A DNA stretch of 64,000 nt. Origin: Armatimonadota bacterium (GTDB taxonomy: Bacteria; Armatimonadota; HRBIN16). Both the position numbers and the translations under genes were made by a program. The stretch covers positions 124,001-188,000 of the forward strand of contig BPGT01000002.1 of assembly GCA_026003175.1 (NCBI GenBank), read 5' to 3'. Below the pieces are notes generated by a model. The model saw only the letters and a program-made list of their open reading frames with translations. It did not search any database and was not told where the DNA came from. Below are positions 9,392 to 21,717 of this stretch, piece after piece (position 1 is the first letter of the stretch; each line of letters starts with the position of its first letter).

Positions 9392-10585
9392 ATGGCTCTG
9401 GAAAAGGTGACTATCCGTCGGGAAGACGGCGCGAAACGTGTGGTGTTGAGCGTGGACGGTGAAGAAGCGAGCGCGTGCTGGATTATCCCGTTGAACATTC
9501 GCATCGGTGCGGCGACGGTGCGCGTGGACGGCATCGGTGGCGTGGAAACCAAACCCGAACACCGCCTGAAAGGCTACGCCAGCCGGGTGCTGCATCGGGC
9601 GATCGAGGAGATGAGCGCAGGAGACGCAGCTATTACTATGCTGTATGGCATCCGCGACTTTTACCATCGTTTTGGCTACGTGACGGCAGGACCGGAGTAC
9701 GGGGTGTTTCTGTATAACGTGAGGCGGGACGAGCCGTTGCCGGCGGGCTGGTGCGTGCGCGAGTTCAACGTGCGGGATTTGCCTGCAGTGCAAAGGATAT
9801 ACGAGCAAGCAACCGCGCTGGCCGCAGGCACCGTCGTGCGCACAGCCGATTCGCGGGTATGGCAGAAGCTGCTGGAGACGCCCGGCAACTATCCGCAAGA
9901 CGAATGCTGGGTGGCGGTATCGCCTGCAGGCGTGGTGGAAGGTTATGCCTGGCGGGCGCGGTGGTGCTGGTCGGTACGCGACATTTTAGAGCGCGAGTTC
10001 CCCGATGCGCTTTCCTTCGGTGAGGTCATCGCGATAACATCCGGCGCGGCAGATGCTCTGCTGGTACACTGTCGTCGGCGCGCCGCCGAAGAGGGCAAAA
10101 GCGAGGCGTTGTTGCCTGTTCCACCCGATAGCGTTGTCGCACACGCGGCACGTTACACCGACGCCCGTCATGTGCAGCTATACAGCGCCAATGGTGGATC
10201 GATGGTGCGGGTGCTGAATGTACAGCGGTTGCTACGGTCACTGGAGCCTGAATGGAATCGTTTGGTTCGTCTGGCTGAACGCAGGGTCGCTCCCTGTCGG
10301 ATAGTCTTTCGTACCGAGATAGGAGAGGGCGCGTTGCTGGTGGGCGACGATGGAGTTCGTCATGCGCAGGAGCAGGCTGAAGACCGTACAACGGGCGGGA
10401 AAGAGGTGCCATCATACACTGTCCGTCTGTCTCAGGGTACGCTGGCGCGGCTGGCACTGGGGTTTGCGCCTGCTGAAGACCTGTGCGCCCGCTTGCCTGA
10501 ACCGCTACCGGAGGCAGTGGTTTCTCTGTTCAAAACGCTCTTTCCTGTCCGTGAACAGCACGCTTACTTACCGGACAGATATTAG
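9392..10585 (+). CDS. Eis-like GNAT acetyltransferase with C-terminal SCP2-like domain
   Basis: 397 residues, matching the length of Eis-type enzymes (two tandem GNAT folds plus a sterol-carrier-like domain). The acetyl-CoA loop is visible as 'VETKPEHRLKGYASRVLHRAIEEM' at ~55-78 (shown in parts: hRLKGYAS is the R/Q-x-x-G-x-A signature). The 'YGIRDFYHRFGYVTAG' segment that follows is characteristic of this family. The last ~100 residues ('CRIVFRTEIGEGALLVGD', 'YTVRLSQGTLARLALGF') form the SCP2-like part. Likely a cytoplasmic N-acetyltransferase acting on an amine or peptide; substrate unknown. It is monocistronic from its own promoter, and ends 23 bp before the first cassette leader. Confidence 0.85.
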   Translation: MALEKVTIRREDGAKRVVLSVDGEEASACWIIPLNIRIGAATVRVDGIGGVETKPEHRLKGYASRVLHRAIEEMSAGDAAITMLYGIRDFYHRFGYVTAGPEYGVFLYNVRRDEPLPAGWCVREFNVRDLPAVQRIYEQATALAAGTVVRTADSRVWQKLLETPGNYPQDECWVAVSPAGVVEGYAWRARWCWSVRDILEREFPDALSFGEVIAITSGAADALLVHCRRRAAEEGKSEALLPVPPDSVVAHAARYTDARHVQLYSANGGSMVRVLNVQRLLRSLEPEWNRLVRLAERRVAPCRIVFRTEIGEGALLVGDDGVRHAQEQAEDRTTGGKEVPSYTVRLSQGTLARLALGFAPAEDLCARLPEPLPEAVVSLFKTLFPVREQHAYLPDRY

Positions 10586-10608
10586 GTGAGAGAAAGTACG
10601 AAGCAAGC

Positions 10609-10672
10609 GTCCCCTTTGGAGGGGTGGAACGGTAATATTATTGAAAAACCACTTCAAAGGAGGTTTACAATC
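10609..10672 (+). repeat. cassette leader repeat, copy 1 (type I)
   Basis: Conserved leader beginning GTCCCCTTTGGAGGGG, then TGGAACGGTAATATTA, ending in AAAGGAGGT as ribosome binding site just before ATGCGACAGCACG. The CCCC/GGGG segments can pair as a short hairpin. It shares the AACCACTTCAAAGGAGGT end with copy 5 and differs there from copies 2-4. Confidence 0.85.
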
Positions 10673-11113
10673 ATGCGACAGCACGTGTTCGCTTTTGTGG
10701 TGGCACTGGCGGTGTGGGGAGTATCAAACCTTATCGGCTTTTTCCCTGCACAACAGTTAAAGAATGAAGTCTGCATTCGACCAGCGGTATCCCTGCCGAC
10801 TCCGAATGCCAGGGTCATTGTAACAGATGATGCCCGATGCGTACAGTCGACCGAGTGCGAGGCGTGGTACCTATACAGCTGTAGCGGGTACCTGCCAAAC
10901 TGCAACGGCGGGTGCTGGATAATAGGGCCCTTCACTTGTTCTGCTTGCATCCAAGAAGAGGGTCAGACATGCGTCCAAGAGCAGGTGGTGGTGAGAGCAC
11001 CATTGAGGCGCTACGATTGCACTTCAAGTAACGGATATAATTGCAACGCATGTAACCGGAACTCCTACACGCCATGGGGCTACCTTGATGTGACAACCTT
11101 CCGTTGTCGCTAG
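10673..11113 (+). CDS. cassette 1: secreted cysteine-rich protein
   Basis: 146 residues from the ATG directly behind the leader's ribosome binding site; an in-frame GTG farther upstream would put the leader inside the gene. The signal peptide begins with the invariant MRQHVFAFVVALAVW found in all five cassettes. The mature part has 13 cysteines including a C-x3-C (CNGGC) and a later CNAC, consistent with an extracytoplasmic disulfide-bonded fold. No homologous family is known to me. The partner membrane protein gene starts 15 bp downstream behind AGGAGGAGG, so the two are co-transcribed. Confidence 0.8.
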   Translation: MRQHVFAFVVALAVWGVSNLIGFFPAQQLKNEVCIRPAVSLPTPNARVIVTDDARCVQSTECEAWYLYSCSGYLPNCNGGCWIIGPFTCSACIQEEGQTCVQEQVVVRAPLRRYDCTSSNGYNCNACNRNSYTPWGYLDVTTFRCR

Positions 11114-11128
11114 GAGGAGGAGCGAACT

Positions 11129-12277
11129 ATGTGCACGCGATTGGTTTCACTTGTCGGTTTTTGGGGGGTAGTTTGCTATCTCCTCTTCATCGTGCGGGCA
11201 GGATATGCGGATCCCATCCGGGACGCTTGCCAGCGTCGTGATACATGGTGTAGTCGCAAGACGTTTGTCTGGGAAGTGACCGCTAGCAGGTCGCTTCGGG
11301 TAAGCAAGCATGAGCGTGAGATGTTGCAATCGACGCCCGGTAATGGCGAGATAGCATTTCACGTCTGGGTCAGTGGGCAGGTTGCTATCATGCGCCGCCC
11401 GGGGTTGACCTACGTCGAGAGTGTCCACCAGCGTGTCAGTCACCCGTGGCTGCTCGGACGTTTCAGCTACTGGCTCGGCATGGGCTTTGTCCTTTATCCA
11501 CCAGCGGAAACGCCGAACATCTATTCACCAGCGCGGGCATTAGTCTTGCCGGTACCTGGGGATGGGCTATATTGGGGTTTTATCAAAGATGGGCCTGACG
11601 AATTGGCTCCAGGGATGCATCCGTCCTTTCTCGCCGGCACGAACCCTCTGCGCACTTTCTCGCCGTTCTTTATTTTCAACTGGCGACAGGGGGTGTGGGT
11701 GCCGGAGGGACGTCAGGGAGCGGTCGTTGTGTATCGATTCTCGACACCCCCTGTGGAGGCAGAGATCGGTCTGGATGCGACCAGGCAATATGCCCCTGTT
11801 TACTTCAAAGCGCAGCAGTATACCTCTCGTCAAGAGTACAAAGTTCGCGAATGGCAGCGGTTGAGTGGGTGGTGGATACCAAGTAAAGTGGAAGTTCAGG
11901 AGGTTACCAGTGGTACTTCATCAACTTTTCTTTATGTTCTCAAGCAGGTACAGGACACTCCCTCGGATATGCATATCATCCTGCCTCATGGCACGCCCGT
12001 CAAGGACATGCGCCACATCCCTGTAGAGACTATCGCTGTGGAAGGTTTGTTTGTGCAAAAGCCCGTTTACAGTTATACATGGTCAGGTTCATTGCCACAA
12101 AAGGAACTGTTGTCTGTCTTCGGCAAAGAGAGCGGTCCTCTTGTTCACTTCGTAAACGCTCCCCAGCCGCCGCGGGAAGGTACCTCGGTTCCACTGGTGC
12201 TTGCGGCGGTGGGGATGGCTGTTGTAGCAGGAGGTATGGTCTATTGGCTACTCAGGCAACGTAGTAAGAGTGCGTAG
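11129..12277 (+). CDS. cassette 1: partner membrane protein
   Basis: 382 residues with an N-terminal hydrophobic segment (signal/anchor, ~7-25), a large extracytoplasmic region and a C-terminal helix near 350-372 followed by basic RQRSKS. It shares with the four other partners a 'GTNPL' segment (consensus G-x-NPL) near the middle and a tryptophan-proline 'GWWIPSKVEV' strand, a pattern reminiscent of LolA/RseB-like half-barrels; that fold assignment is an inference. Its membrane tail is unrelated in detail to the constant tail of partners 2-5, so cassette 1 looks the most diverged. Function unknown; probably works with the cysteine-rich protein encoded just upstream. Confidence 0.75.
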   Translation: MCTRLVSLVGFWGVVCYLLFIVRAGYADPIRDACQRRDTWCSRKTFVWEVTASRSLRVSKHEREMLQSTPGNGEIAFHVWVSGQVAIMRRPGLTYVESVHQRVSHPWLLGRFSYWLGMGFVLYPPAETPNIYSPARALVLPVPGDGLYWGFIKDGPDELAPGMHPSFLAGTNPLRTFSPFFIFNWRQGVWVPEGRQGAVVVYRFSTPPVEAEIGLDATRQYAPVYFKAQQYTSRQEYKVREWQRLSGWWIPSKVEVQEVTSGTSSTFLYVLKQVQDTPSDMHIILPHGTPVKDMRHIPVETIAVEGLFVQKPVYSYTWSGSLPQKELLSVFGKESGPLVHFVNAPQPPREGTSVPLVLAAVGMAVVAGGMVYWLLRQRSKSA

Positions 12278-12402: not shown

Positions 12403-12464
12403 GTCCCCTTTGGAGGGGGTGGAACGGTAATATATACAGAATACTCAAAAGGAGGGTTACAGTC
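12403..12464 (+). repeat. cassette leader repeat, copy 2 (type II)
   Basis: 62 bp identical to copies 3 and 4: GTCCCC hairpin segment, GGAACGG, TAATATATACAGAATACTC, ribosome binding site AAAAGGAGGG. Identity continues for 45 bp into the gene that follows, giving 107 identical bases in total. Confidence 0.9.
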
Positions 12465-12836
12465 ATGCGACAGCACGTGTTCGCTTTTGTGGTAGCACTG
12501 GCGGTGTGGATGGGCGTCATGTGGTTGTCTACTATACAGCGGGTAAAAGCCAGTGCTACCGGAGGACTCTTTCTGGAGTGTACTTTTGTCCATGACACGT
12601 GGATCGTGCCACAGTGTGGGGCTCCTCCTGGATGCACAGGTTTCTGTTCCAAGCGTGTGTATCACACCTACCGTTGCAAACCCGGCGGCTTATTAGACTA
12701 CTGTACGGAAAGCATTGAGGATGGCGTGTTTTACGAATACTACACTACCAACTGCGTTTACCATGCGCCAGGTTGCTCCTGTAACACAAACTGGACATTC
12801 CAGAGTAACCACGTAGGTAGCTGGTGGCGATGCTGA
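12465..12836 (+). CDS. cassette 2: secreted cysteine-rich protein
   Basis: 123 residues. Invariant signal start MRQHVFAFVVALAVW, then a mature part with 10 cysteines: C..C..C-x3-C (CTGFC), C, C, C, CSC followed by NTNW, and a C-terminal C as last residue. The spacing C-x3-C then later C-x-C plus Trp recurs in cassette 3 and, with variations, in 1, 4 and 5, although the residues between differ. Stop overlaps the ATG of the partner gene, implying translational coupling. Extracytoplasmic disulfide-rich protein of unknown function. Confidence 0.82.
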   Translation: MRQHVFAFVVALAVWMGVMWLSTIQRVKASATGGLFLECTFVHDTWIVPQCGAPPGCTGFCSKRVYHTYRCKPGGLLDYCTESIEDGVFYEYYTTNCVYHAPGCSCNTNWTFQSNHVGSWWRC

Positions 12837-14059
12837 GCATTGGTCGCGTAAAAGTACGGATACGCGCCATAGCGGGACTGATTCTGGGCATCGCAACAGT
12901 CCTCTTTAGTAGCGCTGCCAGTGCGCAGAAGCTGGAAGAGGTGCTGGGGGTATTAGACGAAGCCGAGCGTCTCTTCCAGCAATATCGGTTGGAATGGACT
13001 TTGCAAGAAGTAATGACCTCTGCGCCGCGCTCGGAGCAGTCCCTACAGCGTTTGAGGTCTGGTATGCAGCGCGCTATGCAAAAGCAGCGCCTGCCGGAAG
13101 CCATTATCGAGAAAGAGACCTCTGAAGCATTGCGGCGTGAAGCGCAAGGTACGCAACTGTCTGGCGGTGGAAAGTGGATTGCAGAGTGGGGACGGGGGTT
13201 ACTGCACGTTCAAGGAGCGCGCACTTTAGGCGAGGCAACGGGTACTTTCGTGTTTCATGCTTATTACGGCAAGGATTACTTAGTGGAATACGCTGACCCA
13301 GAATACAACAAGTATGCTGCTCAGAAGGGAGCACGTGTTTTTTGTTTCGGTGGCGAGAGTTATCGCTACCACTCGCCTGACCAAGGAGCCTTAGACCTGC
13401 TGCCTGCGGAGTTGTGTTTACTGGCAGGTCTAAACCCCTTACGTATCGCCAACACCCCCAATTGGCGCCTGGTGAAGCAGGAGAGCAATGTAGTGACTTA
13501 CGAGAAGCCAGTCGAGGGTGCAATCAGTCGTTATCTTCTTCGCCTCGAACTGGATGCGCAGCGAGGTTACGCTATTAAGCGTTTCTGGTGCATTGCCATA
13601 CCGGATTCCCACAATTGGAGCGTGGAGGCAACCGTAAGGGGATATCGTGCCTGGGGCAAGGTGTGGGTACCAAGTGAAGTAGTTGTAGAAGGTGTGTATC
13701 TTGGCGGGCAGCAACGCAGACGGCGCGAATGGAGATTAACAGGTATTACGTCAACACGCGAAATAAACCTGCGCATCCCGGAAGGCTTACCTGTGATGGA
13801 TTACAGGCTTGCCGGTTGTGATTTGCTCTCCACCCAGCAGATGTTTTCGGCGACGGAGTCAGGCTCCGCGGTTAGCTATCGGTCAAGTGGCAGGCTGCCT
13901 AGTGTCGCAGAGTTGCAAAGGCAGGCTGTACAGCACACAACTGGCGCAAATGGTGCGCACAAGGGCAGTTCGCATTGGCGTCTCATTCCTCCTCTCTTAC
14001 TCATCGCCATCGGTATCCTGTGGTACTGGCGATTGAAACGGTTGGAGGGTAAAAGGTAG
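12830..14059 (+). CDS. cassette 2: partner membrane protein with constant tail
   Basis: About 409 residues from the ATG at 12830, which overlaps the upstream TGA (ATGCTGA); a GTG two codons earlier is the alternative. Signal peptide to about SAASAQ, a coiled stretch ('VLDEAERLFQQYRLEW'), the shared 'LLAGLNPL' motif, and 'KVWVPSEVVVEG', the W-x-P strand. It ends with one membrane helix and a basic stop-transfer end (WYWRLKRLEGKR) identical to cassette 4. Topology suggests a periplasmic/extracellular domain tethered by its C-terminus. The LolA/RseB-like fold is a guess from the strand pattern. Confidence 0.78.
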   Translation: MLSIGRVKVRIRAIAGLILGIATVLFSSAASAQKLEEVLGVLDEAERLFQQYRLEWTLQEVMTSAPRSEQSLQRLRSGMQRAMQKQRLPEAIIEKETSEALRREAQGTQLSGGGKWIAEWGRGLLHVQGARTLGEATGTFVFHAYYGKDYLVEYADPEYNKYAAQKGARVFCFGGESYRYHSPDQGALDLLPAELCLLAGLNPLRIANTPNWRLVKQESNVVTYEKPVEGAISRYLLRLELDAQRGYAIKRFWCIAIPDSHNWSVEATVRGYRAWGKVWVPSEVVVEGVYLGGQQRRRREWRLTGITSTREINLRIPEGLPVMDYRLAGCDLLSTQQMFSATESGSAVSYRSSGRLPSVAELQRQAVQHTTGANGAHKGSSHWRLIPPLLLIAIGILWYWRLKRLEGKR

Positions 14060-14089
14060 ATGTACTGTCGTGCTGCGGATGCATAATAT
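13989..14089 (+). repeat. constant 3' cassette end, copy after cassette 2
   Basis: About 100 bp covering the membrane-tail codons, stop, and spacer TAGATGTACTGTCGTGCTGC up to GCATAATAT. It is identical to 17972-18073 after cassette 4; a shorter, slightly diverged version (15496-15571) follows cassette 3. Together with the leader it frames each variable interior. Confidence 0.8.
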
Positions 14090-14151
14090 GTCCCCTTTGG
14101 AGGGGGTGGAACGGTAATATATACAGAATACTCAAAAGGAGGGTTACAGTC
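14090..14151 (+). repeat. cassette leader repeat, copy 3 (type II)
   Basis: Identical to copies 2 and 4 over the full 62 bp, but abuts the constant 3' end of cassette 2 rather than DUF1573 sequence, so it marks a different duplication junction. Confidence 0.9.
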
Positions 14152-14574
14152 ATGCGACAGCACGTGTTCGCTTTTGTGGTAGCACTGGCGGTGTGGGTAG
14201 TTATTGGTATCGCTCACACCGGCTTCACCGCACTTAGGGCAAACGCTCAAACAGGCGACATCTGGTCCAGGTGCGTCCGCGTTGCCTATCCGATTGGCAA
14301 TGCAGAAAAAAGATGTGTGCCTCCAGCCTGCAGCAGTAATTGCCGCGGGCGTGTGGTTCTGGGGGGGCAATGCGAGGTACCGGGGCCGCCAAACACGACG
14401 TGTGTAGCCTTCTACAGTCTTACGCCTGTTTACTACATATACAGCACGGGTTGTGTTTACTACGCAGGCAGCTGCTATTGTACGAATCAGTGGGTTCTCG
14501 GTGAGAAGACTGGCGAGACCGAAATCACGCCCGATTGCAGAGAGGCAGTTGGGGGGTCAGGAGGAGGAGAGTAA
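14152..14574 (+). CDS. cassette 3: secreted cysteine-rich protein
   Basis: 140 residues. Invariant MRQHVFAFVVALAVW, signal peptide probably cut after RANA. Ten cysteines in the mature part, with CSSNC as the C-x3-C and CYC followed by TNQW, matching the cassette 2 pattern ('TGCVYYAGSCYC' versus 'TNCVYHAPGCSC'). The C-terminus is a glycine-rich GGSGGGE produced where the gene runs over the GGAGGAGGA ribosome binding site of the next gene, which starts 2 bp after the stop. Confidence 0.82.
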   Translation: MRQHVFAFVVALAVWVVIGIAHTGFTALRANAQTGDIWSRCVRVAYPIGNAEKRCVPPACSSNCRGRVVLGGQCEVPGPPNTTCVAFYSLTPVYYIYSTGCVYYAGSCYCTNQWVLGEKTGETEITPDCREAVGGSGGGE

Positions 14575-14576
14575 AC

Positions 14577-15556
14577 ATGCGCGAGTTACTTGTAGCACTT
14601 TTCCTCTTTGCTGCGATTCTGGGGCGATGTGCTGCTCAGGGTAGCGTAGCCCTGTCAGACGTACAGAAGCAGCTGCATAAAAGGGAAACAGCCCTTCGCG
14701 CATTCCGTACCGAGTGGAATGTGTCGGTAGATTCATTAAATCGAAATCTCATTGTGTCGCCTTTCGGGAAGGGATACTGGCTGAGAGTGCAAAAGCAGGC
14801 AGGCTCTGTAGAGCATGAAGCTGTGCTGTTATCCGAACAACCCTACGCTTACATCTGGCGGCTCAGCTCATGGAGTGCAAATCCTGTCGTGCAGAACCTT
14901 ACCTGGCTATACGGCTCAAATCTGTTGCCATCGGTTGCGGGAATCAACCTCCTCCGCTTCTACGACATCCGTGCGGGCGATGTAAAGATTGAGTACGAAG
15001 GGCGACGCGTTCGGGTGTCCGGGTATCTCCACAAGGAGTTTCCTCCTCCGGTTTCTGGCTTACCGGTACGAGCAGCTATGGTTTTGCTGCTAGATCCCGA
15101 ACACAATTACGCACCTTCAGAGGCGTATCTGTATTTCAACACCCCGGATCAGGTGCTTGAAAAGATGACAGTGGTAGAATGGGTGAGCCATCAGGGGAAT
15201 TGGCTTCCGGCAAAGGTTGAGTTCACCGGCAAAGGCTTGCAACCACTGCGTGTTCATCTTGCCAGAATACATTCCAGTTCTGAGGAAACCCCTAAATGGT
15301 TTACCATCCCCATGTGGGTTAGCGATTGGCGTTTGGGTATAAACGGAAGTAGTGTCTCAGCGTACGAGTTCAAAGGGCAACTGCCCCGCCTGGAGGAACT
15401 CCCTGCGCTGCGAGAAGGCAATAGAGCAAATCCAACTTCTCCCGCCCCATCCGATGGCTCCAAAGGAGGCACTGATGCATTCATTCTCCCTTTTTACTCA
15501 TCACCATCGGTGTCCTGTGGTACTGGCGATTGAAACGGTTGGAGGGTAAAAGGTAG
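14577..15556 (+). CDS. cassette 3: partner membrane protein, tail frameshifted
   Basis: Starts at the ATG at 14577 behind GGAGGAGGAGA, not at the upstream ATG. Signal peptide to about GRCAAQ; 'SVAGINLLRFY' and 'GNWLPAKVEF' correspond to the shared G-x-NPL and W-x-P strands. As sequenced the frame ends at 15533 with a nonsense tail. Adding one T to the T5 tract at 15491-15495 restores 'PFLLITIGVLWYW' and the basic LKRLEGKR end, stopping at 15556. So the membrane anchor is lost as sequenced: either an assembly error, or a secreted, unanchored variant. Shorter (~326 residues when repaired) than the other partners. Confidence 0.72.
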
Positions 15557-15588
15557 ATGTACTGTCGTGCTGCAGAAAGGAGAGCGGG

Positions 15589-16074
15589 TTGCAGGATTTA
15601 CAGGTGCAGCAGATACGGCAACAAGCCGAACACTACTTCCGCAAGCGTTGCCCACCGCAAGAGGTGGATGACCTGGTGCAGGATTGCCTGTATCGGGTGC
15701 TGGTCGCGGAGGCACATGGGTTGGACATCGCCCCGGAACTGGTTCACCACATCTGCCATGCGGTGTGGGTGGACTGGCTGCGCAGGCAGGAGCGACGCGC
15801 TGAGATGGGGAGTGTGATAGAGGAAGACTGTGCCTGTGTGTCGTGGGAGGAGCAACTGCTGCTCTCTATCGACGTGCATGCATGTCTGCAGCAGTTGTCC
15901 CCGGCGGAGCGCGACTTGGTGCACCGCCATTACATCGTGGGCGAGACGTGTGCTTCCATTGGCGATCGGCTGGGCATCAGCGAGCAAGCGGTGAAGAAGC
16001 GGTTACAGCGGTTGAAGGAGAAGCTGCGCAAACTGTTGGCGGACTACGGGGGGGGGTACATAAATGCGACGTAA
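15589..16074 (+). CDS. ECF-like RNA polymerase sigma factor
   Basis: 161 residues from a TTG start with AAAGGAGA 5 nt upstream. Region 2 is at ~8-70 ('CPPQEVDDLVQDCLYRVL', the helix that binds core and -10) and region 4 at ~98-150 ('LSPAERDLVHRHYIVGETCASIGDRLG' with the helix-turn-helix ISEQAVKKRLQRLKEKL). No region 1.1 or 3, as in ECF sigma factors. No anti-sigma gene is adjacent; DUF1573 overlaps its 3' end. It lies inside the cassette array, so the obvious inferred target is the repeated leaders, which carry a GGAAC element like many ECF -35 boxes. Confidence 0.85.
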   Translation: MQDLQVQQIRQQAEHYFRKRCPPQEVDDLVQDCLYRVLVAEAHGLDIAPELVHHICHAVWVDWLRRQERRAEMGSVIEEDCACVSWEEQLLLSIDVHACLQQLSPAERDLVHRHYIVGETCASIGDRLGISEQAVKKRLQRLKEKLRKLLADYGGGYINAT

Positions 16075-16498
16075 GCGATGGGTACCTCTGGTGTTGATAT
16101 GGCTTGGGGTCATCTGGCTGGTGCAGATGAGCATGGCGCAGGCAGGCGGTCATCATGGGGTATGGATTATCGGCAAGCGGATGGATCTGGGCGTGTTGTC
16201 TGCGGGTGAGGCAGCTCAGGGGGTGGTGACTGTTGTGAACCTGTGGGCTGGTGGTCTGGAGGTAGAGGCGATGCCGAGTTGCGGATGCACGGTTCTGGAG
16301 GAGGCTCGGTTTGTGCTGGGAGCATTCGGCTGGAAGCGTGTTCCTGTTCGCGTGGAGACGGCGGGTATGGAGGCAGGGGTACACGGCAAGGTGTTGCGCC
16401 TGAGTTTTCGGCGTGGTAGGGAGATCTGGCAAGAGGATGTGTTGTTGCGTTTCACCGTGCGTAAGAGCATGTCCCCTTTGGAGGGGGTGGAACGGTAA
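16064..16498 (+). CDS. DUF1573 secreted protein
   Basis: 144 residues with an N-terminal signal (basic MRRKR, hydrophobic to about MAQA) and the DUF1573 hallmark 'PSCGCT' near residue 70, preceded by 'VVNLWAGGLEVEA'. The fold is an Ig-like (MSP/ASPM) beta-sandwich found in extracytoplasmic proteins. It overlaps the sigma factor stop by 11 bp, so the two are translationally coupled. Its last codons (SMSPLEGVER) lie inside leader copy 4: the stop is the TAA of GGTAATAT. Possible role in sensing or in anchoring at the envelope, unproven. Confidence 0.85.
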   Translation: MRRKRWVPLVLIWLGVIWLVQMSMAQAGGHHGVWIIGKRMDLGVLSAGEAAQGVVTVVNLWAGGLEVEAMPSCGCTVLEEARFVLGAFGWKRVPVRVETAGMEAGVHGKVLRLSFRRGREIWQEDVLLRFTVRKSMSPLEGVER

Positions 16499-16532
16499 TA
16501 TATACAGAATACTCAAAAGGAGGGTTACAGTC
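16471..16532 (+). repeat. cassette leader repeat, copy 4 (type II)
   Basis: Identical to copies 2 and 3; here the first 28 bp also encode the end of DUF1573. Since the leader is coding at this site and non-coding elsewhere, the leader may have originated as the DUF1573 3' end. Confidence 0.9.
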
Positions 16533-16952
16533 ATGCGACAGCACGTGTTCGCTTTTGTGGTAGCACTGGCGGTGTGGGTAGGGGCTCATCTTGTGGTGAC
16601 GTCTTTTTCAGCGCTTGCTTCAGGCACCAGCGTCACTTGCGCTGAAGAGTGCTACTACTACCCGGTGCAGGTGCGTTTGGAAAACCACTGCCAGCGAGAC
16701 GGGCAGAGATGTACAGGTGTCTGCCGCAAGTTTGTGGCATGGCATGGTGGGTGTGTCCCTAGCGAGAACCCGATGTCGCGCTGTAGAGAATACGATCACC
16801 CAGCCATACCGGACGTCTACGAGGCATATTGCGTTGGTAGTCCCCCATGTGATAGAAACAGCAACTGTGGAGTGATATACAACTACCGAGGCAAAGCATC
16901 GGAGACCGTCACGGTGAGGGACTGTGAAGTATGGCTGGACATTTCTTGCTGA
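16533..16952 (+). CDS. cassette 4: secreted cysteine-rich protein
   Basis: 139 residues with the invariant MRQHVFAFVVALAVW start and signal peptide to about ALAS. Twelve cysteines in the mature protein: CTGVC as C-x3-C, then spaced single cysteines, CDRNSNC in place of C-x-C, and a final C-terminal cysteine. The region between the cysteines is unlike cassettes 2 and 3. The partner gene ATG lies 22 bp inside its 3' end. Confidence 0.82.
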   Translation: MRQHVFAFVVALAVWVGAHLVVTSFSALASGTSVTCAEECYYYPVQVRLENHCQRDGQRCTGVCRKFVAWHGGCVPSENPMSRCREYDHPAIPDVYEAYCVGSPPCDRNSNCGVIYNYRGKASETVTVRDCEVWLDISC

Positions 16953-18043
16953 ATCGACGCGTCCATTTGCTGCCAGCTAGTTTGCTGCTTGCGCTACTGA
17001 CGTTGAACTCAGCCGTAGGGCAAGAGGGAGGTGTGCCCTCCGCTCTTGTCAGTGCGCTTCGGCAGAGAGAGCAGAGCTGTCTCCGATTGGAAACGGAGTG
17101 GGACTGGACAAGGAATGTACCTGGCGACCCCGCAGCCGTGCGCAGGTTGGAGCAAGACATCCAACGTGCCCTGCAATCTCACCCGCCTGGGGAGCGCGCT
17201 AAGGTAGAGCCAGATATTCGCCGCATGTATTCTGCTCTCGCTTACGGTTATCGCGAGCAGACGCGGTGGGTTCTGCGTGGATTGGGTGATAAGTATGCCT
17301 TTTGGGGCGACCTACCAGTAATTGGCAAACCTGAGGTACGCGCTCCCTACAGAGCAATAATATACCCCAATGGGGTGCTCGTAGATGGGCGCATCGTACA
17401 GCCTTTCGCGCAGTGGGTTTTGCATGAACCGGTATTGCTCATCATGATGACGGGAATGAACCCGCTTGAGTTGCTTCAGGATGTGCAAGTGAGCCCGATT
17501 GGGGATAGTCAACGATTGGTCATCGTACAGGGCAGGATGAGGGAGGTGGATGCACGATACTCTAACTACGCTTCTGATAAACCATTAAGAATCACTATTG
17601 ACCTCAGCAAAGGAGGAGCAGTCACCAGAATTCAGTTTACCCGCCCAGAGGGTAGGAAAGGGGAGGTGGTGGTACGAGAATGGGAAAGATATCGAGGGTT
17701 GTGGCTACCCTCCAGTATTATATTAACGGGCGGAGCATGGGGGAGTAGTCAGCATCTAAGCCTTATCGGTGTACGTGATTCATCACTGAAACCTCCTGAG
17801 TGGTTCAGGGAAAGAGCGCCCGTAACAGACACCCGATTGGTGACGCCTGGTGAGGAGGGGGGTACGTATCGGCTCTCTGAACGACTGCCATCGCTCCAGG
17901 AATTGGAGGCAATGAGAACCCGTGCTACTGATGGAAAAGGACCGCTCCGGTGGCCCTGGTGGCGTCTCATCCCTCCTCTCTTACTCATCGCCATCGGTAT
18001 CCTGTGGTACTGGCGATTGAAACGGTTGGAGGGTAAAAGGTAG
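16931..18043 (+). CDS. cassette 4: partner membrane protein with constant tail
   Basis: 370 residues. Signal peptide to about NSAVGQ, 'RQREQSCLRLETEWDW' after it (compare 'RLFQQYRLEWTL' in cassette 2 and 'RAFRTEWNV' in cassette 3), 'MMTGMNPLELL' as the shared G-x-NPL motif, and 'RGLWLPSSIIL' as the W-x-P strand. The single C-terminal helix and basic end WYWRLKRLEGKR are identical to cassette 2. It overlaps the cysteine-rich gene by 22 bp. Inferred type I envelope protein, function unknown. Confidence 0.78.
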   Translation: MAGHFLLNRRVHLLPASLLLALLTLNSAVGQEGGVPSALVSALRQREQSCLRLETEWDWTRNVPGDPAAVRRLEQDIQRALQSHPPGERAKVEPDIRRMYSALAYGYREQTRWVLRGLGDKYAFWGDLPVIGKPEVRAPYRAIIYPNGVLVDGRIVQPFAQWVLHEPVLLIMMTGMNPLELLQDVQVSPIGDSQRLVIVQGRMREVDARYSNYASDKPLRITIDLSKGGAVTRIQFTRPEGRKGEVVVREWERYRGLWLPSSIILTGGAWGSSQHLSLIGVRDSSLKPPEWFRERAPVTDTRLVTPGEEGGTYRLSERLPSLQELEAMRTRATDGKGPLRWPWWRLIPPLLLIAIGILWYWRLKRLEGKR

Positions 18044-18073
18044 ATGTACTGTCGTGCTGCGGATGCATAATAT
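17972..18073 (+). repeat. constant 3' cassette end, copy after cassette 4
   Basis: About 100 bp identical to 13989-14089; identity runs on into the following leader up to GGAACGGTAATAT, so roughly 130 bp at the 2/3 and 4/5 junctions match. Confidence 0.8.
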
Positions 18074-18136
18074 GTCCCCTTTGGAGGGGGTGGAACGGTA
18101 ATATTACGGAAACCACTTCAAAGGAGGTCTACAACC
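18074..18136 (+). repeat. cassette leader repeat, copy 5 (type I)
   Basis: First 30 bp match all leaders; the second half (AACCACTTCAAAGGAGGT) matches copy 1 rather than copies 2-4, pointing to two leader lineages joined by recombination. Confidence 0.87.
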
Positions 18137-18535
18137 ATGCGACAGCACGTGTTCGCTTTTGTAGTGGCACTGGCGGTGTGGGGAGCAACATCGTGGGCTG
18201 TCACGAACCTGCATCCCGCACTTGCCGACGACTCCTCGGCCCTGTTCCACAAATGCGAACAAGTTGTTGGCGACACTATTCTGGCGAGGAGTTGCTACCC
18301 GTACCCGCCACCTCCCGGGTCATACATGTGTGGAGGCTATTGCTCCCGATGGGAAGTGGACACCTACCGTTGTCGTGGTCTCGCGTTGCAATGGCGTTGT
18401 ACCGAGACATTGCAGACGCTACCTGCGGATTGGTTCCTTGGCTACTGCGGACAGAATCCCCCGACTTGCCACGAGTGTAGTGCCCCATGGATATGGCAGG
18501 GTATACAATGGATACCGGCTTGGCGGTGCAGCTGA
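18137..18535 (+). CDS. cassette 5: secreted cysteine-rich protein
   Basis: 132 residues. Invariant MRQHVFAFVVALAVW and a signal peptide ending near HPALA. Ten cysteines in the mature part: CGGYC as the C-x3-C, CHEC followed by SAPWIW, and a near C-terminal cysteine. 'TYRCRGLALQWRCTE' parallels 'TYRCKPGGLLDYCTE' of cassette 2, evidence of common descent despite divergence. Unlike the others, it is separated from its partner by about 180 bp that contain a T6 run and a G6 run but no gene I can support. Confidence 0.82.
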   Translation: MRQHVFAFVVALAVWGATSWAVTNLHPALADDSSALFHKCEQVVGDTILARSCYPYPPPPGSYMCGGYCSRWEVDTYRCRGLALQWRCTETLQTLPADWFLGYCGQNPPTCHECSAPWIWQGIQWIPAWRCS

Positions 18536-18713
18536 GGGGGGAATCTGGTATGCAGCTACGGTTTCGGGTAGTGTACTAATTCGATTCTTTTTTGTTCGCC
18601 GTCGTGGGGGGCGAGTGGGGTAAAAAAAAGCGTAAGACCGCCTCGTCGCCTGCACATAGTCCAGCTGATACAGTAGGAGGCAGTGAGTAACTTACATGGG
18701 GAGGAACTCGGTC

Positions 18714-19994
18714 ATGATTATCAGTATCCTATTGTTGTACCTCTTCGTGTGGGTAGCGGCAGATTCCCGTTTGGAAGCACAACAGGTTCCAGACAGCCTT
18801 CGCAAAGCATGGGTAGAACGTGCTACCCATATGGACAAGGTGCGGATTTCGTGGCATTTCAACGTTCATCGACGTCCTCGTCTTACCCCGCAACAGAAAT
18901 CGGGTATCGAGCAGCAAAACCTCCAGATGGCGATGGAGATGGCTCGGAAGGAGCTTACGAGGCAAGGCGTGCGACAGGATGCTATCGAGAAGCAGGCGCG
19001 GGAGTTCGCGATGGCTTTCGTTGCCTCAGGTTTGCCCCGTGAGTATACTTTTGGAGGGAATCTTGTGGTATCGCGTTATGGGGACGCAGTGTTTGTGCGC
19101 GTGCAGGAGCCCGCGACGAGCGCGTCGGGCGTCGAGAGCATTCTGTGGGAAGTTTTGTATGATACCAACTTGGTGATAGCGGCTCCCCAGAGCTGGAGCT
19201 TTGGTCAACGCAGCTATACGGTTACCAATCTCATCAAACCTCAGCGCGAGGGCGTGGGCGTGCCTTGGGTTCGAGTCTGGAAAAGCGAACCCCCCACCTA
19301 TCTGCGCAGACTTTCTCGGTTTCCTCTCTTCATCACACCGGAACTGCTGGTACTTCTTAGCGGTGTCTCGCCTGAACAGATGTATGGGGGACGCTGGACA
19401 TTGGAGCGTGAGAGCGCAGAAGAATGGGTGCTCCGCCAGCGGGTGACGGAAGGCGACCTTGCGCCTTTCACCGTGAGGATAGGGATACTCAAGTCACGGG
19501 GTGGAGCACCATCGTGGGCGGAAGTAGCACAGGAACGAGGAACCTATCGGGAAGTGTACCGCGTCACGTCGTGGAAACAACCGTTTCAGGATGTATGGAT
19601 GGCAGAGGGTGTCGTGGATACCCGCACCAGCGACATTTTCGAGGACCGCCGAATCTGGAAGTGGAAGCAGATAGGACTCCTCTCTCAAGAGAAAAAGCCA
19701 ATCCCATACATTCCGCAGGGGATGCCTGTAGCAGATTACCGTTTGCTGGGAGCGTCTGCCACTCTGGAGGATATGTCCAAACAGCGAGACGCTATGGTTG
19801 GCTACGAGTGGAGAGGCTATCTGCTCAGCGAGCACGAATTGCGCCAGATGCTCGCCCGGCAAGCAGGAGGACAGAGTGTCAGTACGCAACGGTTAGCGAT
19901 TTTATGGCGATTTCTACCACCGCTTTTACTCATCACCATCGGTGTCCTCTGGTACTGGCGGTTAAAGCGGGTGAAAAGGCACAGGGCGGGGTGA
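18714..19994 (+). CDS. cassette 5: partner membrane protein
   Basis: 426 residues from the ATG at 18714, chosen because GGGGAGGA ends 8 nt before it; the in-frame ATG at 18696 has its Shine-Dalgarno 15 nt away. Signal peptide to about RLEAQQ, then 'VRISWHFNV', a charged helical insert (~45-95) absent from the other partners, 'LLSGVSPEQMY' for the G-x-NPL motif, and a C-terminal helix 'PPLLLITIGVLWYW' with a basic end RLKRVKRHR. The constant tail is present but diverged. Its TGA overlaps the GTG of the next gene, so cassette 5 probably shares a transcript with the O-antigen ligase-like gene. Confidence 0.78.
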   Translation: MIISILLLYLFVWVAADSRLEAQQVPDSLRKAWVERATHMDKVRISWHFNVHRRPRLTPQQKSGIEQQNLQMAMEMARKELTRQGVRQDAIEKQAREFAMAFVASGLPREYTFGGNLVVSRYGDAVFVRVQEPATSASGVESILWEVLYDTNLVIAAPQSWSFGQRSYTVTNLIKPQREGVGVPWVRVWKSEPPTYLRRLSRFPLFITPELLVLLSGVSPEQMYGGRWTLERESAEEWVLRQRVTEGDLAPFTVRIGILKSRGGAPSWAEVAQERGTYREVYRVTSWKQPFQDVWMAEGVVDTRTSDIFEDRRIWKWKQIGLLSQEKKPIPYIPQGMPVADYRLLGASATLEDMSKQRDAMVGYEWRGYLLSEHELRQMLARQAGGQSVSTQRLAILWRFLPPLLLITIGVLWYWRLKRVKRHRAG

Positions 19995-21200
19995 TAGTGA
20001 GAGCGTGGAACATTGTGCGGTGGCTCGTCGCCTTCTGGCTGCTGGTGGGATATACTCTGCCTCACACCTGGTGGCAGAGGTACTCGGCGGAAGCGCTGGT
20101 GCGTAGAGCACTGGAGGATGCGCCGCCGCTCACCGCCTTGCTGGTCGGCGCTGGAATATTCGCGGTGGCGTGGTGGACGTTCGCTCGCGACGCACGTCTG
20201 GAACGCTGGGCGAGCCTACTATGGTTGTTGCTGCTGGTACTGGCAAGCGGTTATCTGTTTGACCCGATTGGGCGTGGGTATGCGGGTACAGGGTATCTCC
20301 GATGTGCGTGGGTGCTGTGCCTGTTGAGCGCAGGAACCTTATGCGCACGCTTGCTGACGCCTGTGGAGCTGATGGCAATGGTGGTCACGCTGGCGGTCGT
20401 GCAAGCGGGCTACACACTGACCACCTTCGCGATGGGACAGAACCTGTTCCACACCCATCGTTTGGCGAGGGCAGGGGGGTACCTTCGGCACACCGGTGCA
20501 TGTGTATACGATGATGTTGCTTGCGCTGCCGATGTGCCTTGCGCTCATGTGTCGGTTGCGCTATGATAGGATGCGGGTAGCACTGGGAGCAGCGGCAGCG
20601 ATCATGGTAGCCGCCCTGTGGGTGACCTACTCGCGTTCGGCGTGGTTGGCGGTCAGCGTAGCGATACCGATGGTGGTGTACGCGTTGTGGGCACGAAAAC
20701 GCCTGGCGATAGCGCTGGGAGTGGCTTTGTGGATACTCCTTGGGGGTATGTACGCTTTACGCTTGGAGAGCAGTGCCCCGCTCGGCGACACCACAGCACA
20801 AACGCGGGTAGACATCTGGCGCATGGGCTGGCAGACGTTCGTGCAGAACTGGCTGTGGGGTGTAGGGGTGGACAACGTGCGCCTGCGCTATACCTCTACC
20901 TGGCGGGGCTATGCTGTCAGCACGTGGTACGGCGCGCCGGAGAACCAGCTGCTGCTCTGGCTGTGCGAGCGCGGGATATGGGGTGGTCTCTTCGCCCTCG
21001 CGCTGGTGATGGCGTTCGTGCAACGATGGCGTCAGTGCCAACCGGTGTACCGCTGGGGATTGGGCAGCGCGCTGCTCGCGATAGGCGTGCTGGGCATGTT
21101 CCAATCGGTGTTCGGCAGGGTGGAAGAGAGTGTGGAGACGGTGCTGGTGAACGCGATATGGGCGTCAATGCTCCGAGAGGAGGTCGTGAGCGATGCATAG
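19991..21200 (+). CDS. O-antigen ligase/polymerase-like membrane protein, frameshifted
   Basis: Two frames together encode about 400 residues with ten or so membrane helices. The first runs from GTG 19991 to about 20475 and the second from about 20480 to 21200. Removing one G from G6 at 20474-20479 joins them as 'RAGGTFGTPVHVYTMM', the GTFG-x-P motif of O-antigen ligases (Wzy_C family). The second half has 'TYSRSAWLA' and 'GVGVDNVRLRY', the usual family motifs that include the catalytic loop region. Role: transfer or polymerisation of lipid-linked glycans at the outer face of the inner membrane. It overlaps the cassette 5 partner and the pseudopilin downstream. Confidence 0.8.
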
Positions 21201-21717
21201 GCAACGGGCGTTCTCTTTACCGGAGATGCTGATTGTGGTGGGCATCATCTGGCTGCTGGCTGCGTTAGTGTTTCCCGTGTTCAGCGAGGCACGCAAACGC
21301 AGCTATGAGACGGAATGCGCATCGCACCTGCGCCAAATCGGTATGGCGATCCAGATGTATCTTAGCGACTACGATGACGAGTATCCGTTGCGTTTGCTTT
21401 CGCTCGTACCCGGATATGTTTCACATCAGGGCATTTTCTTATGCAGATTAGACCAGTTTGAGGGCAAGGCAGAACCCGGGCGGTACTGGGTTTCGCCGGG
21501 GACCAGCTACTTCTATCTGGGCGATGTGGACTACGGCATCGACTACTTCCGAAGCATTGGAGAGTATGACCCCACCTTTCCGCCGTGGGCGGTATACATT
21601 CGCACTATGCCCGCTTCCGAGGCGAAGGTGGTATCGGACAGCTGGCATCGCTTCCCCGAGATGACCTTGCGCCTGTACGCGGACGGACATGTGAAGATGG
21701 AGCCGTCAAGTAAATAA
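21193..21717 (+). CDS. pseudopilin-like protein with class III signal
   Basis: 174 residues. 'QRAFSLPEMLIVVGIIWLLAALVFPVF' at the start is a prepilin signal (cleavage after the A, E at +5), followed by 'SEARKRSYETECASHLRQIGMAIQMYLSDYDDEYPL', typical of the Armatimonadota/Planctomycetota pilin-like family (quoted in parts by motif). C-terminus has 'RLYADGHVKM', a variant of the H-x9-DG motif with wider spacing. Overlaps the O-antigen ligase stop by 8 bp and ends just before a terminator, so it closes this operon. Possibly linked to glycan-decorated surface structures. Confidence 0.82.
   Translation: MHRQRAFSLPEMLIVVGIIWLLAALVFPVFSEARKRSYETECASHLRQIGMAIQMYLSDYDDEYPLRLLSLVPGYVSHQGIFLCRLDQFEGKAEPGRYWVSPGTSYFYLGDVDYGIDYFRSIGEYDPTFPPWAVYIRTMPASEAKVVSDSWHRFPEMTLRLYADGHVKMEPSSK

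Follow-up and report, generated by a model that had tools for sequence, protein, structure and literature searches.

Organisation of the S–L array

The subject of this study is a tandem gene array in the genome of an Armatimonadota bacterium (GTDB lineage HRBIN16; assembly GCA_026003175.1), contained in a 64,000-nucleotide stretch (contig BPGT01000002.1, positions 124,001 to 188,000 of the forward strand) that was analysed as a whole and is referred to here as the window. Between 10.6 and 20.0 kb the window carries five gene pairs, S1-L1 to S5-L5, with one gene for an extracytoplasmic function (ECF) sigma factor and one for a DUF1573-like protein (D) between pairs 3 and 4. The S genes encode exported proteins of 123-146 residues and the L genes proteins of 318-432 residues. 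The array alternates constant junctions, each comprising L membrane-anchor codons, a spacer, a promoter-like leader, a ribosome-binding site and signal-peptide codons, with variable cassettes made up of an S core and an L ectodomain. The genome that contains the window is designated G000, the genomes of its relatives G001 and so on, and three-digit L numbers such as L044 denote loci. The features are as follows, in window coordinates:

9392..10585, +, putative Eis-like acetyltransferase (eis), labelled by reading; fixed left flank, the same neighbour in G001-G004 and G009
10606..10672, +, leader 1: promoter-like element and ribosome-binding site, type B second half
10673..11113, +, S1, exported 10-Cys protein; first 15 codons constant
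11129..12277, +, L1, protein anchored in the membrane at its C-terminus; LolA fold predicted, from the model of L4
12329..12383, +, what is left of another DUF1573-like gene, upstream of copy 2; 85% identity to 16398-16452
12403..12464, +, leader 2
12465..12836, +, S2
12830..14059, +, L2; start overlaps S2 stop
13976..14120, +, constant junction L2/S3 (L2 anchor codons, intergenic DNA, start of leader 3); 99% identity to 17960-18104
14090..14151, +, leader 3
14152..14574, +, S3
14577..15533, +, L3; frame ends before the anchor, which runs on in the -1 frame to 15556
15589..16074, +, ECF sigma factor (Sigma70_r4_2, 2.4e-10; TIGR02937, 6.9e-16)
16064..16498, +, D, exported and DUF1573-like, with a membrane segment at its N-terminus, assigned by alignment; overlaps the ECF gene
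16471..16532, +, leader 4; overlaps D stop
16533..16952, +, S4
16931..18043, +, L4; overlaps S4; structure modelled
17960..18104, +, constant junction L4/S5
18075..18136, +, leader 5; type B second half
18137..18535, +, S5
18696..19994, +, L5
19997..21197, +, right-flank gene, O-antigen-ligase-like (Wzy_C)
21193..21717, +, right-flank gene for a prepilin-like protein; N_methyl score just below the cut-off

Both ends of the cassettes are constant

Leaders 2, 3 and 4 are identical at 62/62 positions, and identity continues through the first 45 nt of S2, S3 and S4 (45/45) to stop sharply at codon 15/16, as a preliminary description of this DNA had reported; beyond this point the cores of the three copies are at 42-44% identity, which is alignment noise. 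Leaders 1 and 5 are alike in their second half (51/60), also in agreement with that description. The five small proteins it listed are present, although copy 1, at 10673-11113, lies outside the interval 12403-18181 to which all five had been assigned. A genome-wide search found five leader copies in the 4.1-Mb genome, every one inside the array. Leader 4 doubles as the last codons of D (SMSPLEGVER and stop); the possibility that the leader is merely the tail of the DUF1573-like gene was rejected, as that gene ends upstream of the leader in G001 and G002.

The 3′ ends of the partner genes, absent from the earlier account, are as constant as the 5′ ends. Over their final 75 nt, which encode the anchor and stop, L2 and L4 are identical at 74/75 positions, against 41% for the bodies of these genes, and the identity extends across the spacer and into the following leader, the junctions L2/S3 and L4/S5 being 99% identical over 145 bp. 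Compared with its own orthologue, L4 is 78% identical in the anchor and 88% in the body. The L membrane-anchor codons are thus homogenised as well as the 5′ end. At the end of L3 (15473-15556) the anchor is lost by a -1 frame change at C_CCT_TTT_TAC, which is found in three species (the window, G004 and G009; loci L044, L042 and L041) and, once more, in another L gene of G009. The anchor frame remains open and its differences are mostly at third positions ([2,2,5] and [4,4,7] by codon position); the change is an old deletion that has been homogenised or else a programmed frameshift that yields secreted and anchored forms.

Recombination at the ends and turnover of cassettes

In trees of leader and head, copies from the same genome fall together (G001 and G002 starred), whereas in trees of the cores orthologues do. 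Approximately unbiased (AU) tests on leaders rejected orthologue clades (S1, p 4e-4; S3, p 1e-46; S4, p 3e-7), those on cores rejected genome clades (G000, G002 and G001), and the reverse topology was rejected in every tested case. This demonstrates concerted evolution of the constant ends within genomes. The transition is best seen in S3, for which the window and G004 share 375/378 nt (99.2%) of the core against 44/61 (72%) of the leader; as far as nt 30 of the gene 15/91 sites are different, and beyond it 3/393 (Fisher p 2e-9), the switch falling in the interval from nt 30 to about nt 46. A crossover zone thus lies at the signal-peptide codons, where a breakpoint near the 15th codon had been anticipated. 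S3 of G004 adjoins eis and starts with the eis-side leader that copy 1 of the window carries, and in the alignment of G000 and G004 DNA the synteny blocks switch within the leader and head on the left and within the L anchor codons on the right.

Among the nine same-genus genomes searched, six contain S-L cassettes (G001-G004, G008 and G009), located in 5/6 carriers at the same site after eis, in differing numbers and orders. In G004 and G009, S3-L3 adjoins eis and is accompanied by one further pair; G002 has S3, S1 and S4 with two ECF-D pairs; in G001, ECF-D is flanked by cassettes on both sides; G003 has an S2-like copy first and S4-L4 last; and G008 has ECF-D-S1-L1 on a short contig. The S type matches the L type in 12/12 clearly typable pairs. 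G006 (L149) has an empty site, in which eis is followed after 86 bp by a sialate-esterase-like gene and the array, Wzy_C and prepilin genes are absent; since eis leads directly to the esterase gene, the whole island is missing. Cassettes therefore turn over at a fixed site, the species differing in which cassettes they hold and in what order. In G004 (L044, ~9584-10217) a truncated D is fused out of frame to an S2-like gene without its own leader and head, a joint that results from a deletion between D and S.

Synonymous divergence (dS) of the cassettes is lower than that of their surroundings. For S3-L3 of the window and G004, dS is 0.023/0.067, against 0.31 for eis, 0.29 for the DUF1559-type neighbour and 0.53 for the prepilin gene. 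Comparison of S4-L4 with G003 gives 0.51 and 0.39 against 0.76 and 1.02, with 0.59 for prepilin, and that of S3-L3 with G009 gives 0.55 and 0.61 against 1.39 for eis. The low cassette dS makes it probable that cassettes have replaced one another across species, using the constant ends as homology arms. A recent duplication followed by fast divergence was ruled out, as the cores have orthologues in other species. The gene conversion of the 5′ end and shuffling of cores put forward in the preliminary description are strongly supported by the contrasting trees and AU tests, and by the differing cassette sets, the low dS of S3-L3 and the switches between synteny blocks.

The same description had invoked positive selection and active diversification of the core, which our data do not bear out. 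Pairwise ratios of non-synonymous to synonymous divergence (dN/dS), taken where dS is unsaturated, are 0.12-0.16 for orthologous S cores and mostly 0.12-0.23 for L; as gene-wide averages, they leave room for a few positively selected sites. In these orthologue pairs no accelerated non-synonymous change of the core, as in hypervariable toxin families, was found. The cores are under purifying selection and retain their ten cysteines; it is the presence and order of cassettes that vary.

The S and L proteins

The C-x3-C motifs noted earlier are present in the S proteins, but are not the sole strong feature of the mature parts, since ten Cys columns are common to the five window proteins and are largely kept in homologues from other families. 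The S3 model (predicted local distance difference test, pLDDT, 87) comprises a signal helix followed by beta strands. Downstream of one ECF-D-S-L unit lies a gene for a VKOR-family protein (L098:6064-7341), which fits a need to form disulfides in S.

L is predicted to adopt the LolA-type half-open beta-barrel fold. The L4 model (mean pLDDT 82) matches the LolA superfamily with a best Foldseek E-value of 2.4e-8 and probability 1.00 (3bk5, 3buu, LolA3 and LprG), and RseB more weakly (E 9.6e-4). L differs from the LolA/LolB/LprG/RseB superfamily in its length (~370-430 residues), its C-terminal membrane anchor, the absence of a sequence-level Pfam match and its pairing with S. Neither S nor L matched a family in Pfam, NCBIfam, PADLOC or PDB sequence searches.

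The leader resembles an ECF-type promoter

The ECF gene of the array passes the cut-offs for Sigma70 region 4 (40.3 bits, cut-off 25.7) and TIGR02937 (58.3 bits, cut-off 42.9). The leaders contain the element TGTCMCM-N15/16-CGRTA, laid out as -35 and -10 sequences with a 16-nt spacer, to which there are four exact matches genome-wide, all within the array. Columns common to the leaders of four diverged lineages are GTC.C, a few G/T, CG.T and GGAGG. The leader is best read as a likely ECF-type promoter with TGTCMC, a spacer of ~16 nt and CGRTA. It is alike in layout to the ECF41 promoter, TGTCACA-n16-CGTC (PMC3426412), in having TGTCAC/TGTCCC, a 16-nt spacer and a CG-containing -10, but the -10 here reads CGRTA, unlike CGTC, and the window sigma factor (161 residues, region 4 ending at 146-150) is without the fused C-terminal regulatory domain of the ECF41 group. 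A structured RNA leader was rejected, there being no consensus pairs or secondary structure and no Rfam match. Searches for the promoter element before ECF genes, and before S in solitary units, found it only in G008.

Two S genes of G220, which belongs to another family, have a near-identical leader and signal peptide with different cores, the leader containing TGTCCCC-N16-CGTT; the same constant-head phenomenon occurs there independently. Because two tandem S-L pairs in G230 have no common head, constancy of the head is a product of recombination in particular lineages and is not something that the family requires.

A four-gene module in the phylum

A profile search of 291 genomes of the phylum found L in 30, which fall into five family groups, that of the window among them. 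The order ECF, D, S, L recurs around many L genes, S sitting between D and L, and solitary units are common, also within the same genus (L043, and L093 as far as its contig reaches). The ECF factor, the DUF1573-like protein, the 10-Cys S family and the predicted LolA-fold L thus form a conserved module in several families. Given these recurring units, the window array looks like an expanded unit that has lost most ECF-D pairs, copy 2 retaining a D remnant. No description of the module was found in the open-access literature, and it is apparently undescribed; current family libraries name neither S nor L.

The window D is under the detection limit for PF07610 (DUF1573), but a homologue in a solitary unit passes it (L089:4965-5399, 27.8 bits, cut-off 26.1), and a CGC motif and a common pattern are present in all; D differs from this family in its linkage to the ECF factor and S-L. 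A GTDB scan with D returned three relatives, one Chthonomonadia bacterium Ch118 and the others metagenome-assembled genomes.

The gene after L is often O-antigen-ligase-like (two above the cut-off having a peptidoglycan transglycosylase fusion) or prepilin-like, and once of the VKOR family. The two fusions of Wzy_C to Transgly (L081:7625-9796 and L089:6724-8898) lie directly downstream of L. In the window a frameshift near 20475 interrupts the O-antigen-ligase-like gene, which is intact (400 residues) in relatives, the L040 copy scoring 72.5 bits for PF04932 (cut-off 31.7), with further examples in L081, L084, L089 and L092. The prepilin-like protein has 88 matches in G000, forming a very large N-methylated prepilin/DUF1559-type family.

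Interpretation of the array

We propose that this accessory locus arose from the four-gene envelope module and is a tandem array of cassettes. Each cassette is a pair consisting of an exported, predicted all-beta ten-Cys S and a LolA-fold L anchored C-terminally in the membrane, with constant outer ends: leader, ribosome-binding site and signal-peptide codons on the left, L anchor codons and spacer on the right. Gene conversion would homogenise these ends in each genome, and they may act as homology arms for the loss, movement and replacement of S-L, also between species, while the middles are old lineages under purifying selection. If the array's own sigma factor drives the leader promoter, an incoming cassette would instantly gain regulation, export and anchoring. 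L may carry or receive its own S in the envelope, an envelope ligand/carrier pair being the suggested biochemical function, and the adjacent Wzy_C-type enzyme may decorate the exported partner. As a whole, from homogenised ends to promoter and S-L pairing, this explanation seems reasonably probable.

Several points weigh against it. The contigs of several relatives end inside the array, and the dS baseline consists of a few flanking genes and is not genome-wide. L1 and L5 carry other anchors that are not homogenised with the rest. Since the leader copies are homologous, their common motif could partly reflect ancestry; moreover, the G003b leader is without the -35 GTC and solitary units are without the element before S. 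A fold search with the S model gave no significant PDB match, and L has no LolA match in Pfam.

Purifying selection alone might keep the leader and signal peptide as promoter, translation start and export signal without recombination, consistent with the conservation of promoter-like and ribosome-site columns across genomes and of the head as protein even in G001, whose copies differ in DNA. We consider this highly improbable, however, as leaders cluster by genome, grouping by orthologue being rejected in the AU tests, the S3 copies of G000 and G004 combine near-identical cores with diverged leaders, and in G000 paralogues 2-4 do not differ at synonymous sites of the head. The array might instead be a sigma-factor signalling device, with L as an RseB-like sensor, S as ligand and D or L restraining the ECF factor. 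The fold matches to L include RseB and the ECF and D genes overlap, as sigma/regulator gene pairs often do, but D and L both lack a cytoplasmic domain of the size expected for an anti-sigma factor, an ECF gene is missing from most cassettes and LolA proteins match L better than RseB, making this unlikely.

Distinctly unlikely, in our view, is a diversifying secreted-toxin/immunity array in which S is antagonistic, L confers immunity or acts as receptor and variants are positively selected. A constant signal peptide with a variable Cys-rich core, the joint travel of S and L types and their variable presence between species would all fit, as would the best PDB sequence matches of S, defensin and scorpion-toxin chains, though at E-values of only 0.15-0.97. 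The low dN/dS of orthologous cores, the 10-Cys framework kept across families, the commonness of solitary units and the absence of any defence-library match for S or L argue against it. Conotoxin-type genes have the same general layout of constant signal peptide and variable Cys-rich core, but here both ends are homogenised and the cores are conserved between species, not hypervariable. The constant N-terminus and variable C-terminal part are also reminiscent of ribosomally made, enzyme-modified peptide precursors with leader and core; this is scarcely credible, as the constant part is a signal peptide, the cores are ~100 residues long with a common cysteine framework under purifying selection, and no modification enzyme family was found among the genes scanned. 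A recombining cassette array has a counterpart in bacterial surface-antigen arrays, which exchange cassettes at conserved flanks and likewise have variable blocks bounded by constant, recombining DNA, but here the blocks are paired secreted/anchored genes, there is no single expression site and each cassette has its own leader.

It is possible, though we advance this only tentatively, that species of the genus trade paired secreted-ligand/LolA-fold-carrier cassettes via shared constant ends, which provide the promoter, the export signal and the anchor, and that each strain thereby has its own set of proteins for envelope recognition or modification under one ECF factor. In this largely uncultured hot-spring lineage, the array would keep regulation, export and anchoring constant while functional middles are exchanged between species, and from it emerges a four-gene envelope module, apparently not described before, whose predicted promoter is open to direct testing.

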